The position numbers and the translations under genes were made by a program. This document shows positions 3,223-16,865 of a stretch of 16,908 nucleotides of DNA, piece by piece. A model generated the notes under the pieces. The model was not told where the DNA came from and did not search any database. It was given only the letters and a program-made list of their open reading frames with translations. Origin of the DNA: Deltaproteobacteria bacterium (GTDB lineage Bacteria > Desulfobacterota > DSM-4660 > Desulfatiglandales > HGW-15); NCBI GenBank assembly GCA_019308985.1, contig JAFDHB010000080.1, forward strand, positions 1-16,908, given 5' to 3'. The number at the start of each line of letters is the position of its first letter. Within the stretch, counting starts at the first letter, position 1.

Positions 3223-3927
3223 TCAAGACGGCGATATCTCCTTCATGTATTCCTTCAGCAGTTTTGAATCCTTTTCACTCATTTCCAGGAATCTGACCCC
3301 CATCCCCGGAGGTTTGCCCTTGACCTCTTCCGCTTCTTGCCTCGCCCAAGTTACCTGACATTTAATCTCTAAGGTTCTGCTGAGATCCGGCAATTGAAGT
3401 CTTAGCAAGAACTTCTCGCCGACCCTCAAAGGCCTCTTAGTAACAATGAAGATACCGCCTGAGCTAAGGTTGCCCGAGTAGGCGGACACAAAGGTCTCTC
3501 GATCCTTGAATTTGAGAGACAGGCTCTTTGCAATCCTCTCCCTTCTTCTCATGGAGAACTCTTGAATTCGATCCATCATCTTCTCGAATCGTCTGACAAA
3601 GGTGACGAGTATGGATCGAAAGTCGGAAGAGAGCTTGTTGAACTCGTCGTCAAGGAACTGTCGGTCAATGATCCCGACAGTGGTCTCTCCGATTGCGCGG
3701 GTCGTTGCGGTTCGCCTGACAGACCCTATGAGGGCCAGTTCTCCGAATATCTCTCCCTCCTTGAGGATGCCCAGCATGTATTTCCTCCCGCCAACGGTTC
3801 GGGACACTTCTATTGCGCCTGAAAGGATAACATAGACCCATGTGCCGGAGCTTCCCTGTTCAAAAATGACTTGGCCGTCCTGGTAGGTCTCCTCCCTGAC
3901 AATGTTGAAATAGTTATGTCTTTCCAT
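3223..3927 (-). CDS. Cyclic nucleotide-binding domain + PilZ domain protein
   Basis: Residues about 10-115 form a CRP/PKA-type cyclic nucleotide-binding barrel. The phosphate-binding cassette is visible as GEIFGELALIGSVRRTATTRA with its Glu and Arg present (FGEL at 61-64, RRTA at 71-74), so cAMP or cGMP binding is plausible. Residues about 127-230 form a PilZ-type domain of the Myxococcus paralogous kind (TIGR02266-like), with RxxxR at 127-131, NLSSGG at 153-158, and PLRVGEKFLL and PPGMGVRF further on. The RxxxR...NxSxxG pair is the c-di-GMP-binding signature. There is no DNA-binding domain, so this is probably a cytoplasmic sensor or adaptor joining two second messengers and not a transcription factor. 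A Shine-Dalgarno-like GAGG lies about 7 nt before the ATG. It has its own promoter (4020-4048) and is followed by a 150-nt gap. Confidence 0.85.
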   Translation of the reverse strand: MERHNYFNIVREETYQDGQVIFEQGSSGTWVYVILSGAIEVSRTVGGRKYMLGILKEGEIFGELALIGSVRRTATTRAIGETTVGIIDRQFLDDEFNKLSSDFRSILVTFVRRFEKMMDRIQEFSMRRRERIAKSLSLKFKDRETFVSAYSGNLSSGGIFIVTKRPLRVGEKFLLRLQLPDLSRTLEIKCQVTWARQEAEEVKGKPPGMGVRFLEMSEKDSKLLKEYMKEISPS

Positions 3928-4890: not shown

Positions 4891-6234
4891 CTACTTCCGG
4901 TAGTATCCCCACTCCACCAGCCGACGGTAAGCATACCTGGCGTAAGGACCCCTCGTCACCTTTTGCAGGTACCTGTGGTAGTATTCTGCCGCTTGTTCTA
5001 TCTTTTCCATCCCCTCAAGGGACAATCCGATGAAAAAGATGGTGTTGGGGTTGCCGGGCAGCACTTTCTCGTAGGCCATAAAATCCCTGTAGGCCTCTGA
5101 ATATCTCTTCAGCTTAATCCTCGCAAATCCAGCCAGATGGAGTGCTTGAGCCTCTCCAGGGTAGGCCCCTTTTGCCTCCTCTGCATGTCCCAGGGCCTCG
5201 GCGTACTTCTCCTGGAGGATGAGTGCTTTTGACAGCATAAGGAGCCCTGCGTAGTCCCCCGGGGCCTCTTTCAATGCCTTTCTAAACCAAGCCTCGGCCC
5301 CTGAATAGTCTTTCTTTGCCATTGCCCCCTCTCCCTCCTGCATCGCCAGGATGGCGGCGGCCTTGGCCCTCAGATTCCTTGTGTTGTCCATATATCGTTC
5401 CCTGTAAAGGGGAGCATTTCTGAATTTGGAGTAGCGGGTCTTTGAATAGAACAAGGCCCGTTGATAACGCTCATCGCTCATGGGGTGTGTCGCAAAGAGG
5501 ACCTGCGTGGCAGATGGCCCTTTTTTTGACAGACCCTTCAGCATCTCCATCAGTCCCACCATCCCCATGGGGCTGTAACCTGTTTTGACCATGTAGTCAA
5601 TCCCGAGGGAGTCCGCCTCTCGTTCGTTATCCCTCGAATAGGCCGCCAGCAGAATACCTGACCCAAGCATCCCGATCGTTGCGGCCAGGTCGGTGAGACC
5701 TCTGTTCCTTACTCCCACGGCGGCCGCAGCGCCCGCAACAAACAAGCTGGCTAAAGTGCCCTTGGACATCTGTTCTGCAGTATGCCGTGCGTTCACGTGG
5801 GCCAACTCGTGCCCCAGCAGCGCGGCCAGCTCTGCCTCGTTCTTCAGCTTGAGGAGGATACCCCTGGTGATCCCCACGCTCCCACCTGGAAATGCATAGG
5901 CGTTGATATAGGTGGCATTTAGGGCCATGAATCTGTACGGAAGGTACGGGCGATGGCTGTGGGAGGCGAGAGACCTGCCTGTCCGGTCTACGTAAGTCCT
6001 GATGTCCCTATCCTGAATTTGACCATAGTCCAATGAGAATTGGTGTGGCGAGTTTTGTTTGTCTGTACGGATCTCCTGGTCTTCGGATATCAACATCAGT
6101 TGGGATTTCCCCGTGACGGGATTGGTGGCGCATCCAAAAAGGAGGCCGGCCCCTGACAGAGATGTCAACCACAGGAAGTCCCTGCGTGACACCAGGCGAC
6201 CTTTCGAATGTAGCCCTTCTATCATGGACATCAT
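4891..6234 (-). CDS. M48-family metalloprotease lipoprotein with C-terminal TPRs (BepA/YfgC-like)
   Basis: This 447-residue zinc protease has HELAH at residues 142-146 (catalytic Glu143) and the third zinc ligand in RDNEREAD (Glu206). The N-terminus carries a twin-arginine motif (SRRDFL), a hydrophobic stretch and a lipobox ending at Cys35 (LLFGC), followed by the ATNPVTGK sequence typical of BepA/YfgC-like proteins. It is therefore probably a Tat-exported, lipid-anchored periplasmic protease. Residues about 290-445 are tetratricopeptide repeats (KDYSGAEAWFRKAL, EKYAEALGHAEEA, KRYSEAYRDFMAYE, EKIEQAAEYYHRYL), as in BepA, which handles misassembled outer-membrane proteins. An AGGGAGG Shine-Dalgarno abuts the first ATG; translation may start at Met2 or Met4. 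A promoter candidate lies at 6267-6296. The gene is followed by the DUF1624 gene. Confidence 0.92.
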   Translation of the reverse strand: MMSMIEGLHSKGRLVSRRDFLWLTSLSGAGLLFGCATNPVTGKSQLMLISEDQEIRTDKQNSPHQFSLDYGQIQDRDIRTYVDRTGRSLASHSHRPYLPYRFMALNATYINAYAFPGGSVGITRGILLKLKNEAELAALLGHELAHVNARHTAEQMSKGTLASLFVAGAAAAVGVRNRGLTDLAATIGMLGSGILLAAYSRDNEREADSLGIDYMVKTGYSPMGMVGLMEMLKGLSKKGPSATQVLFATHPMSDERYQRALFYSKTRYSKFRNAPLYRERYMDNTRNLRAKAAAILAMQEGEGAMAKKDYSGAEAWFRKALKEAPGDYAGLLMLSKALILQEKYAEALGHAEEAKGAYPGEAQALHLAGFARIKLKRYSEAYRDFMAYEKVLPGNPNTIFFIGLSLEGMEKIEQAAEYYHRYLQKVTRGPYARYAYRRLVEWGYYRK

Positions 6235-6493: not shown

Positions 6494-7393
6494 TCAATAG
6501 CGATTCAGGCTCTCGTTCAGAAAGGCGTTTTCTATGGCTATGCCCGCCCTTTTGCCGAGATCCATAAACAAAGAAAGGTCTTTTTTCCTGAAGCAGTGTG
6601 GGCTTGACACGGAATCCAGGTACAGGGCTCCCCTCACCCGGGAGCCACTCATGATGGGCACACACATTACCGAGGCGATTTTGGAAAGCTTGAGGGTCTC
6701 GGCAATTTCATCGCCTCTGGCGGAATGAGCATCGGCAATAACGACAGCCTTCCCTTCCCCCAGCACCCTTTCCACGACTTCTTTGGAATATGCAGTGCCC
6801 TCACGGGCCGCGGGCTCCCTGGACCTCGATATGGTTTCCAGAATTTGGCCTGTCACAGGGTCCGTCAACAGGATCACACCCCTTTCGATTCTCTTCAGGA
6901 TGCTGAAGATATTGTCCAGCAAGTCCTCAAGCGCTCTTCTGATATTTGCGCTCTCCTCCAGGATATGTGAGGCACTGTAGATCAACTCCATGATCTTTTG
7001 ATTGGTCTTGCTCCTGTGCTGAACAGCCTGCCCGCCTTCGTTTCCCACATCCTTGGTCAGCTCAATCGAGTCGAGAAAGGGCATGACATGCTCAACGCAC
7101 CCTTTTCCGAGGCAGATGACACTCATTCCTATTACGATAGGGTTCCCCTCAAGGATTTCAACTTCCTCATCCGGCTTCATGTATTTTCCGTTGAAGAAGG
7201 TACCATTCAAGCTTTTGAGGTCCCTGGCAAAGTAGTTCTGGCCCCTGCGAATTATCTCCAGGTGCCTACGAGACACAGTCTTGTCAAGTATTTGGATATC
7301 GTTTTCTCTACCACGCCCTACGGTAATGACATCTTTCTCTATCTCAAAGGACTTGCCCTGCTCCGGACCGTTCAAAATGTAGATCTTAGCCAT
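6494..7393 (-). CDS. FHA domain + GAF domain signalling protein
   Basis: Residues about 1-95 form a forkhead-associated domain: GRGRENDI at 27-33, SRRH at 41-44 and LNGTFFNG at 62-69. It therefore has the conserved Arg, Ser, His and Asn that recognise phosphothreonine. Residues about 135-292 form a GAF domain (IERGVILLTDPVTGQIL, then SVMCVPIMSGSRVRGALYLDS), which senses small molecules or redox state. The chain ends right after GAF (IAIENAFLNESLNRY). In many Desulfobacterota and Myxococcota proteins an AAA+ sigma-54 activator, cyclase or kinase domain follows this point; none is encoded downstream in any frame here. It probably works as a phospho-dependent adaptor. The gene stands alone and is preceded by a sigma-54-like promoter (7490-7505) and paired palindromes (7655-7692), so it is likely under inducible control. 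Confidence 0.85.
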   Translation of the reverse strand: MAKIYILNGPEQGKSFEIEKDVITVGRGRENDIQILDKTVSRRHLEIIRRGQNYFARDLKSLNGTFFNGKYMKPDEEVEILEGNPIVIGMSVICLGKGCVEHVMPFLDSIELTKDVGNEGGQAVQHRSKTNQKIMELIYSASHILEESANIRRALEDLLDNIFSILKRIERGVILLTDPVTGQILETISRSREPAAREGTAYSKEVVERVLGEGKAVVIADAHSARGDEIAETLKLSKIASVMCVPIMSGSRVRGALYLDSVSSPHCFRKKDLSLFMDLGKRAGIAIENAFLNESLNRY

Positions 7394-7654: not shown

Positions 7655-7692
7655 TGCACAACTTATTGTGCACATGCACAAGAAATTGTGCA
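7655..7692 (-). promoter_or_regulatory. Tandem palindromes, candidate enhancer-binding sites (locus 1)
   Basis: There are two 18-bp inverted repeats, TGCACAACTTATTGTGCA (7655-7672) and TGCACAAGAAATTGTGCA (7675-7692), with centres 20 bp apart. Both fit TGCACAA-N4-TTGTGCA. They lie about 150 bp upstream of the sigma-54-like promoter of the FHA-GAF gene, where enhancer-binding protein sites are usually found. The outer TGCAC/GTGCA halves recall NtrC sites but the spacing is one base longer. The rest of the 7394-7752 gap holds the promoter and two GAAGTACTT copies (7483-7491 and 7573-7581). Confidence 0.7.
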
Positions 7693-13023: not shown

Positions 13024-15102
13024 TTATGAATAGGTTATCTTAAACTTGTTCTGCATGTATTCCAGATATTCATTGCCACATTGGACATTCAGTACCCATG
13101 CCTGATACTGCTTTTCATGGGGAATCTTGTTCGCTTTGACATACTCGAAGGGATAACACATTACCGGGACTTTCTCGGTGTAGTACTGCTTCGTCAATTT
13201 CCCGATTGCAGTGGATAGAATATCCCAGGGTGATTCAGGATTGATAACAAATATCTTGATTCCGTTGAGCAGTTCTGAGAGATTTAGGCCCAAATCAGAC
13301 TGATTTGCAAGGAGTATGGCATACAGCTCATTTGCCTTCAAAAGTGAATAAACTTTGTATTCCCTCCGGAAGCCTGACCGAGCATAGTCTTCTTCAAGGG
13401 TTCCCCCTTCTCCATTCAATCCCAATGCCTCCATTAACAAGCCCCCAGAGTGATGGTCATAGAATCGCTCCAGCTCCCACAGCTCGCCCTTTGAACTCTC
13501 TTTGAGGACCCATTCGTCCGGTAGACGGGCGCCGAGGGAAAGGCTGGTATAGGGAAGATATGAAAAAAGGTCCATTGAGCATCCCTTGGGCTTCTTCAGG
13601 GACCTTGAAAAACCTCCAAAGACCAGGTTTGGAAACCTGTTTTCGGGCCTAAAGTAACACATCACATAATTCATGTTGGAAGAGGGAAGGCGATACATGT
13701 CATTGAGATAGTGCATGATCTGCCTTAAGACGAGAAAACCTGTCCGCTTTTGATCAAGGGGCAATGCAGCATGGTGGTGTATCATCCATGCCTTTTCGTA
13801 GGCCCTGATCATGGAGATGTGGCCGTAAATCTTCCCGTTCCTCTGGTAGGTAAAGTGCCTGGCGATTCCAGGATTGTCCTGATAGAGTTTCCTATAGGTG
13901 TCTTTGAATCTTTCCTTATAAGCTTGTATCAACCGATATTTCTTGGGGTAAATAAAACCTGTGTTGAAAAAGAACTCCCATAGGGAGTTCATGTCCACCC
14001 TGCTGGATATGTAGGCATGAGGATCCAAAGCGCTGGTCAATATGTGGGTGAGTCTGCTGTAAGCGATGATGTCCATGTCAAGGACACTGATCCCGCAGCG
14101 AACCCCCTTTTCATCCCCTGGCATTCGGTAGATGACCTGAGCCTCGCAAGATATCGCCGAGGCGCCCTGGAAGTCTATCTCCATTTTGGGAATAATCATG
14201 CCCGGGACAAGTACAGCATCGTCAGGGGCCTCGTACACCGAAAACCCGGAAGTGGAAATGTCATCCACCGCCATCTGAACCTGCTTCGATAAAAGGGGAT
14301 GCTCAAATATCAGCGTGGGCGTTGGGGTCAACCTCTGTCTGAGGTTTCGAATCTGCTTCTTCCTGAACCGTTTTATCTCGGTCTCCAGGGGAGAGAGGAT
14401 GATTTCCCCCTGCTTTGATCCAAGTTCATGACGGATACACCTGCAATTTCCGGAGAAGATCACCTGCTCGCTGCGCTTCAGACTTATGCTAACAGGGACA
14501 TCGGAGTTAAGCCAGTGGAAAGAACAACTTGAAGCAGGCCGAACTCGAACCCTAAATCCCGTAGGGCTGAAGTCCAACAGTTTTCCTGTGGCATGGAATC
14601 CGTTTTGTATGACTTCGGCCGTGATCCCGTCGCATTTGTAACGCCTTGTTTGGCGCTGACCCAAGGCGCAGCCTTCAGAAGAAATCTTCACCTTAAGATA
14701 ATCCGTGGTTATCTCAAGCAAAGTCGCGGGAACGAGGGTCATGGAACGGCCATCATCAATGACAAGGTAAAGGAACCTGTAGATCTCCACGTCCGTCCCC
14801 GAAGTGTCCCTTTTGTCCCACATGCACGTGACCTTGTTCCCAGAGCATGGCTTGGGATAGGCTCTCAGGAGGATGCTTTCTTCATATCGCGGGTGACGGA
14901 GAAGGACGTAGAGATATCCATCCCTAAAATGGATATGATTTACGTAATTGATCACCTCTTCCTTGGTCACCGAGAGGGAATTCTCTGCGGCCTGGATAAG
15001 ATCCTGGTGTTGGAAGAGCCAGGGAGGAACCTGGGAGGTCCCGGAGAGGGGGCTTGTGGATCCCAAGCGTGTTCGGTTTATTATTTGGCCCTTGTCTTCC
15101 AA
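13024..15102 (-). CDS. Double PilZ domain protein with C-terminal GNAT-like acyltransferase domain
   Basis: Residues 1-145 form an unassigned N-terminal region. Residues about 148-250 form a PilZ domain with RQTRR (150-154, RxxxR) and DFSPTG (177-182, DxSxxG), the two c-di-GMP-contacting motifs. Residues about 258-355 look like a second PilZ-like domain, with DISTSG at 281-286 but no clean RxxxR. Residues about 370-692 resemble the GNAT-type acyltransferase domain found fused to PilZ in Desulfobacterota (HISMIRAYEKAWMIHHHAAL, NYVMCYFRPENRFPNLVFGGF). c-di-GMP-controlled acylation of a protein or envelope substrate is therefore plausible, but no substrate is known. The protein is soluble. The start is TTG at 15102 with GGGGAG 3-4 nt upstream; the only upstream ATG runs into a stop. 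A sigma-54-like promoter (15210-15225) and tandem palindromes (15395-15434) precede it. Confidence 0.8.
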   Translation of the reverse strand: MEDKGQIINRTRLGSTSPLSGTSQVPPWLFQHQDLIQAAENSLSVTKEEVINYVNHIHFRDGYLYVLLRHPRYEESILLRAYPKPCSGNKVTCMWDKRDTSGTDVEIYRFLYLVIDDGRSMTLVPATLLEITTDYLKVKISSEGCALGQRQTRRYKCDGITAEVIQNGFHATGKLLDFSPTGFRVRVRPASSCSFHWLNSDVPVSISLKRSEQVIFSGNCRCIRHELGSKQGEIILSPLETEIKRFRKKQIRNLRQRLTPTPTLIFEHPLLSKQVQMAVDDISTSGFSVYEAPDDAVLVPGMIIPKMEIDFQGASAISCEAQVIYRMPGDEKGVRCGISVLDMDIIAYSRLTHILTSALDPHAYISSRVDMNSLWEFFFNTGFIYPKKYRLIQAYKERFKDTYRKLYQDNPGIARHFTYQRNGKIYGHISMIRAYEKAWMIHHHAALPLDQKRTGFLVLRQIMHYLNDMYRLPSSNMNYVMCYFRPENRFPNLVFGGFSRSLKKPKGCSMDLFSYLPYTSLSLGARLPDEWVLKESSKGELWELERFYDHHSGGLLMEALGLNGEGGTLEEDYARSGFRREYKVYSLLKANELYAILLANQSDLGLNLSELLNGIKIFVINPESPWDILSTAIGKLTKQYYTEKVPVMCYPFEYVKANKIPHEKQYQAWVLNVQCGNEYLEYMQNKFKITYS

Positions 15103-15394: not shown

Positions 15395-15434
15395 TGCACA
15401 AAATTTTGTGCATCAATGCACAAAATTTTGTGCA
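15395..15434 (-). promoter_or_regulatory. Tandem perfect palindromes, candidate enhancer-binding sites (locus 2)
   Basis: TGCACAAAATTTTGTGCA occurs twice (15395-15412 and 15417-15434), each a perfect 18-bp palindrome, with centres 22 bp apart. They match the TGCACAA-N4-TTGTGCA sites at 7655-7692 and lie about 170 bp upstream of the sigma-54-like promoter of the PilZ-GNAT gene. The remainder of the 15103-15485 gap holds that promoter, a GGCGTGG / CCACGCC inverted repeat (15242-15275) and an AT-rich stretch near 15320-15360 that could bend DNA. Confidence 0.72.
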
Positions 15435-15485: not shown

Positions 15486-16865
15486 TCAGGGCCTTTTCTG
15501 TCTCAGGGGGGAATTGTTGCCGCTGACGCCTGAGCCGCCTGTGGCATTCCACACATGGGGGATCTCTCTTTGTGGTAGTTGAGACCTGATCTCCCCCCGC
15601 AATAGAAGGCCGACTCCCAGGATCCTTCCCTTGAAGCTCATGATAACATACCCGTCTTCCACCCCCAGATCCGCTTTTAGGGACCCTTGCTCCAGCAAGG
15701 CCACGAGCTGCTCCCTTTTCAGATCGATCCTGGCCCTTGAGGCCCCGTGGCCGAAGAATCGGATCATTCGGGTCGAGGGTTTGATGAAGTTCCCGATAAC
15801 CTGGAAGGCCCTCATTCCGACCATGGACACCCTGAGTCGAAAGGCACTGTCCAGGTGATCAGATCTCCTCATGAGCCAAAGGCTCTTCCCCTTCTTGAAC
15901 AGGAGATATGGATCAAAGGAGGAGAGAGGAATTCCAAAACGCTCGGCCACCGAGCCGAAGATGGAGTCCCTGGCATCACCTTCCAGCAATTCTGGCCATG
16001 AAGAATCCGACGGAGTTGACTTGGTGCGGGTAGAACCTGGCAGCTTTTTGGATTTCCCTGTCATATTTTTCCTTTCCCCATTGGGCAAGCCCCTTTTCGT
16101 GCCTGATATCCGTTTCTATGGGCAAGAGTCTGGCATTCCTATTCTCCAGAAGGTACTGCACGACCGCCTCATTTTCTTCGGGATCATAGGTGCAGGTGGA
16201 ATAGAGCACCTGCCCCCCCTCCTTTAACAGGTCGAATGCCCGGGTTATGATCCTCTTCTGCAGATCGGGGAGTTTACTCTTCCTCTTCGTTATGACATAC
16301 CTGCTCCTGGAATGAGAGGAGCGAAACCTCCCCTCCCCTGAGCAGGGCACATCCGCCAGTATGCGGTCAAAGACCACCCTCTTGGGGAATTCCTGGGCCT
16401 GATAACTCGTACACCAAGCCTGCTGAGGGTATGGCCCAGGGGAACATGCCGGCTGGAGTAGAGCTCGTTTGCGACTATCAGCCCTGTGTTGTTCATTATT
16501 TCCGCCATTTGTGCTGTTTTTCCGCCCGGGGCAGCACACATATCAAGAACAAGGGCCTCCTTTCCAGGCACAAGAATGATGGGTGCGAGACATGAAGTGA
16601 GGGCCTGGGGGTGAAAATACCCCATGGCATACTCGAAGAGCTTTCCCGGGAACTCCAAGCCCGAGGCGAAATAGAACCCCTCATATCTTGGCGAAGCCCT
16701 TTTGAGTTGGATTCCCTTATCCTGCAACATGACCAAGAGGGATCCTGTCTCAATCCTGAGGCGATTCACCCTGATGTGCACGGGTAAGGGTGCGTGAAGG
16801 CTTTCCACAAAGGAGGGAAAATCCGGTATGATGTCCTGGTATCGGTCAAAGGAACGAAAGGTCAT
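15486..16865 (-). pseudogene. NOL1/NOP2/Sun-family RNA (cytosine-5) methyltransferase, twice frameshifted
   Basis: Three overlapping frames together make a complete RsmF-like protein. Frame one (16865 to about 16405) gives the N-terminal domain and SAM site (LVLDMCAAPGGKTAQMAEIM, then LGHTLSRLGV). Frame two (about 16405 to 15990) gives the catalytic core: TSYQAQEFPKRVVFDRILADVPCSGEGRF, with the motif IV cysteine, and LYSTCTYDPEENEAVV, with the motif VI cysteine. It ends with FYPHQVNSVGFFMARI and then a TGA at 15976. Frame three (about 16000 to 15486), in the same register as frame one, gives the C-terminal RNA-binding (PUA-like) region: WPELLEGDARD, then MIRFFGHGASRARIDLKREQ and DGYVIMSFKGRILGVGLLL. 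Such enzymes methylate rRNA or tRNA. At both junctions residues expected from the family are missing, so small deletions seem likely. It could be a decaying gene or an assembly or sequencing error; the conserved motifs are otherwise intact. Confidence 0.75.

Follow-up and report, generated by a model that had tools for sequence, protein, structure and literature searches.

Two identical 18 bp palindromes stand in tandem upstream of a gene for a PilZ-domain protein in a 16,908-nucleotide stretch of deltaproteobacterial DNA (the window). Which protein, if any, reads them, and what does it control? The palindromes, each with the sequence TGCACAAAATTTTGTGCA, occupy positions 15395..15412 and 15417..15434, with a centre spacing of 22 bp, and are annotated without a strand. 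Together they are proposed to form an enhancer (upstream activating sequence, UAS) for an enhancer-binding protein (EBP) of sigma-54 promoters. With a probability of about 0.85, judged from sequence comparison, tandem pairs of this kind are UASs of sigma-54 promoters, most likely bound by an NtrC/AtoC-class response-regulator EBP of a single family, that of the reference protein P0002. In what follows, related genomes are labelled G, fetched loci L and contigs C.

Palindrome pairs in the window and in the nearest genome

A sigma-54 type (-24/-12) promoter, TGGCACAGATATTGA, lies on the minus strand at 15225-15211, 170 bp from the pair, and faces the PilZ-domain gene. A second pair consists of TGCACAACTTATTGTGCA at 7655..7672 and TGCACAAGAAATTGTGCA at 7675..7692, also annotated without a strand, with a centre spacing of 20 bp; it is located 150 bp from a -24/-12-like promoter, TGGCACGAAATTTGA (7505-7491, minus strand), which precedes a gene for an FHA-GAF protein. 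The earlier note on this DNA, made from the sequence alone, had described two identical palindromes with a 22 bp centre spacing, a promoter about 170 bp away and a recurrence of the motif only at 7655-7692, and all three statements are exact. The window contains four copies of TGCACAA-N4-TTGTGCA, forming the two tandem pairs, and one additional match with three mismatches at 6901. These five matches at up to three mismatches compare with a chance mean of 0.45 and a maximum of 3 in 200 dinucleotide shuffles, none of which reached five.

The gene behind the first promoter (13024..15102, minus strand) encodes a protein of 692 aa as called from a TTG codon, the start codon being uncertain. Its PilZ domains, recognised by Pfam (E = 1.7e-06), are followed by a predicted tandem GNAT-like fold. 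Profile searches for GNAT were negative, in Pfam up to E 1 and in NCBIfam up to E 0.001; in the structural model (pLDDT 79.8), the Foldseek/VIA-align matches are PilZ chains and tandem GNAT chains. The name PilZ-GNAT, used in the earlier note, is fair because the predicted fold matches both PilZ domains and tandem GNAT enzymes. PilZ effectors of c-di-GMP carry the motifs RxxxR and D/NxSxxG, and the protein has a PilZ fold with both. Among the candidates scored, 1,818 database entries match it at E 1e-20; Pfam annotation, in 120 of these, is PilZ alone or none. The FHA-GAF protein (6494..7393, minus strand; 299 aa) is encoded by the first gene after TGGCACGAAATTTGA and matches Pfam FHA (3.3e-18) and GAF_2 (8e-11).

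Two other features of the window were recorded. A second PilZ protein, encoded at 3223-3927 (minus strand), carries a cyclic-nucleotide-binding domain ahead of PilZ; no site pair adjoins it. An RsmB/F-type methyltransferase gene at 15486-16865 (minus strand) is split across three open frames; since the first two pieces share a single frame in the counterpart from the nearest genome (L033, 6234-7139), there seems to be a frame difference in the window at this point.

The nearest genome, G001, has all sampled 31-mers of the window in common with it. Exact TGCACAA-N4-TTGTGCA occurs 11 times in its 5.1 Mb, and the reversed control not at all. The sites form nine tandem clusters, one of them seeded by a one-mismatch site, and every cluster has a second palindrome with 0–3 mismatches, 20–22 bp away. 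Eight of the nine face TGGCAY-N5-TTG, at 52, 139, 150, 166, 166, 169, 170 and 178 bp; the ninth (C288), which has a contig end 258 bp away on one side, is without it. The 15-mer TGGCACAGATATTGA itself recurs 178 bp from the cluster on contig C180. Over the 5.1 Mb, TGGCAY-N5-TTG is found at 122 places on both strands, and the reversed pattern at 29; by simple arithmetic from the 122 places, about 0.006 would be expected in the 250 bp outward from any point taken at random.

The first genes after the G001 clusters include those for PilZ-GNAT, FHA-GAF and a class III cyclase (L028). In L032, the cluster precedes a regulator judged from its sequence to be receiver-only, followed by an LpxL-like acyltransferase; the clusters of L035 and L036 precede two RHS-repeat proteins and face TGGCACGGATATTGA. 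What follows in L030 (8843-9166) is a small protein whose start looks signal-like by eye; in L029 it is a gene of no assigned family, broken by the contig end. Site clusters upstream of RHS-repeat genes, with only weaker promoter-like sites, are also present in G005 (L037, L038 and L041), giving five RHS genes in all.

Distribution, promoter orientation and conservation of the pairs

TGCACA-N6-TGTGCA occurring twice with 2–4 bases between was sought in one genome per species, without selection for promoters. The scan returned 96 stretches, of which 80 were examined, holding 83 pairs. Titles of 76 of the 80 loci name Desulfobacterales, Desulfobacteraceae, Deltaproteobacteria, Desulfaltia or the Olavius Delta 3 symbiont; the other four name Methylomirabilota, Phascolarctobacterium, Tectomicrobia and Nitrospinota. 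The loci are not independent of one another, since a few genomes supplied many of them and several duplicate records of the G genomes.

The earlier note proposed to scan related genomes for such pairs upstream of sigma-54 promoters, and this is how most of them stand. Within 250 bp outward, TGGCAY-N5-TTG was found at 54 of the 83 pairs in these 80 of 96 loci, always at 51–189 bp; inward it was found at none, up to 600 bp. For comparison, a strict outward promoter was found at 34 of 3,259 random points (1.0%) taken from these loci. A looser promoter score was reached outward at 64 of the 83 pairs, inward at seven and at 7.7% of 1,851 random points. The strict pattern is missing within 250 bp of 29 pairs, and the looser score is not reached at 19, eight of these near a contig or locus end. 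Similar tandem, in-phase sites upstream of -24/-12 promoters, the arrangement that characterises a sigma-54 UAS, are present. The site-to-promoter distances gave no clear helical period between 9.5 and 12 bp.

Some loci depart from this pattern. Five pairs with 2-base gaps in the assembly JAFDKD (Meg22_24_Bin_96; L153, L159, L163, L164 and L171) have no recognisable sigma-54 promoter nearby; two of them are inside called frames of 103–112 aa, and L171 is near a contig end. The Phascolarctobacterium pair (L121), with no EBP match at E 1e-100, lies inside an open frame, 8 bases from the contig end, and is probably due to chance. For the Tectomicrobia pair (L143), no EBP was found in the locus, and the best in the genome has 44% identity to P0002.

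Conservation upstream of orthologues, proposed in the earlier note as a check, was partly borne out for the PilZ-GNAT gene and not for the FHA-GAF gene, whose homologues had the site in none of 29 further loci, taken from a longer match list. PilZ-GNAT homologues are present in 22 of 41 relatives, and 1,000 bp or less was examined upstream of each. A pair with a promoter precedes the gene in six of the 22 (G001, G005, G007, G014, G016 and G012, the last with one strong and one weak half) and also before two additional homologues, in L113 (59%) and L145 (58%). The six pairs score 33.4–54.4, against background values from 501 windows of -1.0 (95%), 28.7 (99%) and 43.0 (maximum), so that two of them (33.4 and 36.3) lie below the background maximum. 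In G024 there is a single site with no promoter. No site was found in 13 of the 22, namely G003 (381 bp seen), G010, G015, G027, G028, G029 (749 bp), G032, G034, G035, G036, G038, G040 and G041, nor before the second G001 copy of the gene or one G011 piece; G020 and the other G011 piece were left out as not judgeable. Before the PilZ-GNAT gene of G010 comes a MerR-type gene, which is itself preceded by a site whose partner is weak (5648-5685) and by TGGCATACTTCTTGG.

The regulator family beside the pairs and its proposed targets

EBPs encoded beside pairs in L039, L042 and L046 have receiver, sigma-54 AAA+ and HTH_8 domains according to Pfam. A receiver, a sigma-54 AAA+ domain with GAFTGA and a Fis-type HTH are the features of an NtrC-class response-regulator EBP, and the family has them, with GAFTGA in most of its members. 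Its members form one orthologous group with at least 56% identity to P0002, the next best match having 45%. An orthologue covering most of the length of P0002 is encoded in 20 of 41 relatives, with a 65% fragment in G031; the G001 orthologue is at C115:47500. A good site lies within 2.5 kb of the EBP in nine of 21 neighbourhoods (G002, G005, G008, G009, G012, G017, G027, G031 and G037) and is missing within that distance in the other 12, G001 included. In G001, the EBP gene and its divergently oriented acyltransferase neighbour have no good site between them, the best single score being 10.8 versus 23.6–27.2 for the window sites. The neighbours of the EBP on both sides in G005 are histidine kinases, and one of the targets in G037 is a hybrid kinase.

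A P0002-family EBP (at least 61% identity) is encoded within 430 bp of a pair in 20 of the 80 scan loci, and relatives with 45–49% identity within 100 bp in three more (L115, L161 and L174); the Methylomirabilota protein of L115 (49%) is 49 bp from its pair. Beyond these 23, no other EBP (E 1e-30 or better) was found within 1 kb of a pair in the 80 loci, and the sole other EBP-bearing locus is the Nitrospinota L146, whose protein (46%) is encoded 4.3 kb from the pair.

Presence across genomes points the same way. Among 85 genomes of the order, a relaxed pair was found in 23, the EBP (E 1e-130 or better) in 32 and both in 19; the Fisher p of 3e-7 is too small a value, since related genomes are not independent. 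Four of the 23 genomes with a pair have no detected EBP orthologue (G007, G015, G070 and G073, drafts 74–90% complete); G016, a congener of G007, has one. Thirteen of the 32 EBP genomes are without an exact pair.

HRNTL is present in the HTH of all 32 EBPs read, and GAFTGA in 29, the G001 orthologue included; the latter is absent from L086, L092 and L100. Among 20 other EBPs of the fetched loci (below 55% identity), HRNTL occurs in four, exactly those in the pair-bearing loci L115, L146, L161 and L174, three of which (L115, L161 and L174) are also among the 32; the remaining 16, one of them cut short, are without it. These four distant EBPs have 45–49% identity to P0002 and the same tandem pair in their loci, two of them in other phyla by title. 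Judged from these residues and sites, this hints at a wider HRNTL/TGCACA code.

The distant proteins also bear on a second reading, to which we assign a low probability, roughly that of a minor contender: that the sites are read by a different EBP of the genome, or by several paralogues, the P0002 family being only one of them. G001 has 28 sigma-54 activator matches, its P0002 orthologue's own gene is without a clear site, and the EBPs adjoining the pairs of L115, L161 and L174 have only 45–49% identity. Against this, no further EBP at E 1e-30 or better stands within 1 kb of a pair in the 80 loci, the distant EBPs have HRNTL too, and the pair and the P0002-family EBP co-occur across the 85 genomes.

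The first-downstream proteins were scanned in 47 of 49 cases, two doubtful calls (L150 and one of L154) being left out. A receiver is present in 16 of the 47, and eight of these are P0002-family EBPs, each itself a promoter target; lipid A-type acyltransferases and PilZ-domain proteins account for four each. Targets with a family name, among the families listed (25 of 64), are signalling, envelope and surface genes. The target in L114 is a GAF-MshEN-T2SSE ATPase, of the pilus or type II secretion motor type; L175, with the same promoter letters, probably holds a second T2SSE target.

Because promoters lie outward of the pairs and an orthologous EBP adjoins a share of them, in eight cases as its own target, the pairs appear to be sigma-54 enhancers, probably of that EBP. 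The earlier note's idea that a dedicated protein, in the simplest case a sigma-54 EBP, binds the DNA here thus gains support from EBP adjacency, autoregulatory promoters, co-occurrence and the shared HTH signature.

Comparison with known systems and the proposed regulon

NtrC uses tandem sites at glnA and has an RNTL helix. It resembles the system described here in binding a palindrome with TGCAC ends through a Fis-type HTH and in activating sigma-54 promoters. That NtrC itself, the true nitrogen regulator, binds the pairs is nevertheless improbable, more so than the reading with other EBPs. The NtrC enhancer consensus, TGCACCAnnnTGGTGCA, is 17 bp long (PMC8743547), and the one-base difference in length mentioned in the earlier note is real, the site here having 18 bp. 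Written as TGCACCA-N3-TGGTGCA, the consensus has the same TGCAC ends (PMC8743547), and G078 carries one pair TGCACCA-N4-TGGTGCA; the present site differs in its inner half-site and A/T-rich centre as well as in length, the adjoining EBP reaches 424 bits on NCBIfam ntrC (cut-off 558.6), and the named targets (families listed, 25 of 64) are other than those of NtrC, being signalling, envelope and surface genes with no ammonium-assimilation gene among them. The G078 pair (C70:16549-16587) is a tandem whose 18 bp sites have NtrC-like halves; a P0002 orthologue is encoded in the same genome.

P0002, the one protein scored against these models, is below all three NCBIfam cut-offs: 455.3 versus 714 bits for AtoC, its best model, 430.5 versus 502.6 bits for PrsR (TIGR02915) and 424 versus 558.6 bits for ntrC. 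Its assignment as an orthologue of AtoC, PrsR or NtrC was rejected on these scores. AtoC is similar in having paired sites upstream of a sigma-54 promoter, and its site contains TGCACA; the AtoC half sites, in contrast, are asymmetric and 20 bp long. PrsR, the PEP-CTERM response regulator, which we take to be the family of Desulfovibrio vulgaris DVUA0057, is likewise a response-regulator EBP tied to surface genes. At atoDAEB, AtoC has two inverted 20 bp sites, GCTATGCAGAAATTTGCACA (PMC3118216), and DVUA0057 is described as a predicted PEP-CTERM regulator (PMC3333781). The EBP regulons of D. vulgaris also combine UASs with sigma-54 promoters and include many cell-exterior genes; the TGCAC string is absent from the main text of that account (PMC4641369). 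The half-site letters that occur in PMC5963220, PMC3844500 and PMC10162802 belong, in the passages concerned, to primers or promoter rows and not to this motif. Among the papers listed in the literature searches, no account of the site was found in the article text.

The weakest alternative, a REP-type repeat or RNA hairpin with no part in sigma-54 control, is very improbable and largely refuted: perfect palindromes could fold and the five JAFDKD pairs lack a recognisable promoter, but instead of the hundreds of scattered, promoterless copies by which the earlier note would have known such a repeat, G001 has only 11, in clusters of which eight of nine face a promoter, and the strict promoters at pairs lie only outward, at 51–189 bp.

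Under the preferred reading, sigma-54 enhancers bound by the P0002-family EBP, the binder would be a phosphorylated NtrC/AtoC-class regulator with a receiver, an AAA+ domain that usually carries GAFTGA, and a Fis-type HTH with HRNTL; here it would be the G001 orthologue at C115:47500. Each palindrome would take one of two dimers, both placed on the same face of the DNA and two helical turns apart. The bound protein would then oligomerise, loop to sigma-54 RNA polymerase at a -24/-12 promoter some 50–190 bp away and open the promoter. Recruitment of dimers, oligomerisation and looping to the sigma-54 polymerase are the established model for NtrC-type activators. In the window, the genes switched on would be those for the PilZ-GNAT protein, of the c-di-GMP effector type, and the FHA-GAF signalling protein; in G001, they would also include the receiver-only regulator and then the lipid A-type acyltransferase, the nucleotide cyclase and the two RHS-repeat proteins. 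Several relatives would have the regulator switch on both the gene that encodes it and an acyltransferase gene lying divergent to that gene, and this autoregulation may create a positive loop.

As a kind, a sigma-54 UAS with an NtrC-class EBP is long known; the proposed regulon with this site is new. To our knowledge, most EBPs of the Desulfobacteria have no known site. These bacteria are rich in such proteins, with 69 in one genome (PMC12316311). A broader picture, offered tentatively and with somewhat less than even confidence, is that a dedicated sigma-54 regulator, which often activates its own gene and is common across Desulfobacter-type bacteria, may run a surface-remodelling programme. 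The programme would join lipid acylation, by LpxL-like and PilZ-GNAT acyltransferases, to signalling through c-di-GMP and cyclic nucleotides, to single-domain regulators and to giant RHS proteins. One palindrome code would be read by the HRNTL helix, reaching Methylomirabilota and perhaps Nitrospinota. Since one site code can be linked to one EBP family and to a list of targets, a regulon of sediment bacteria that are mostly uncultured is now open to direct tests. What it may serve is suggested by those targets, which include acyltransferases, PilZ-GNAT, RHS and signalling proteins.
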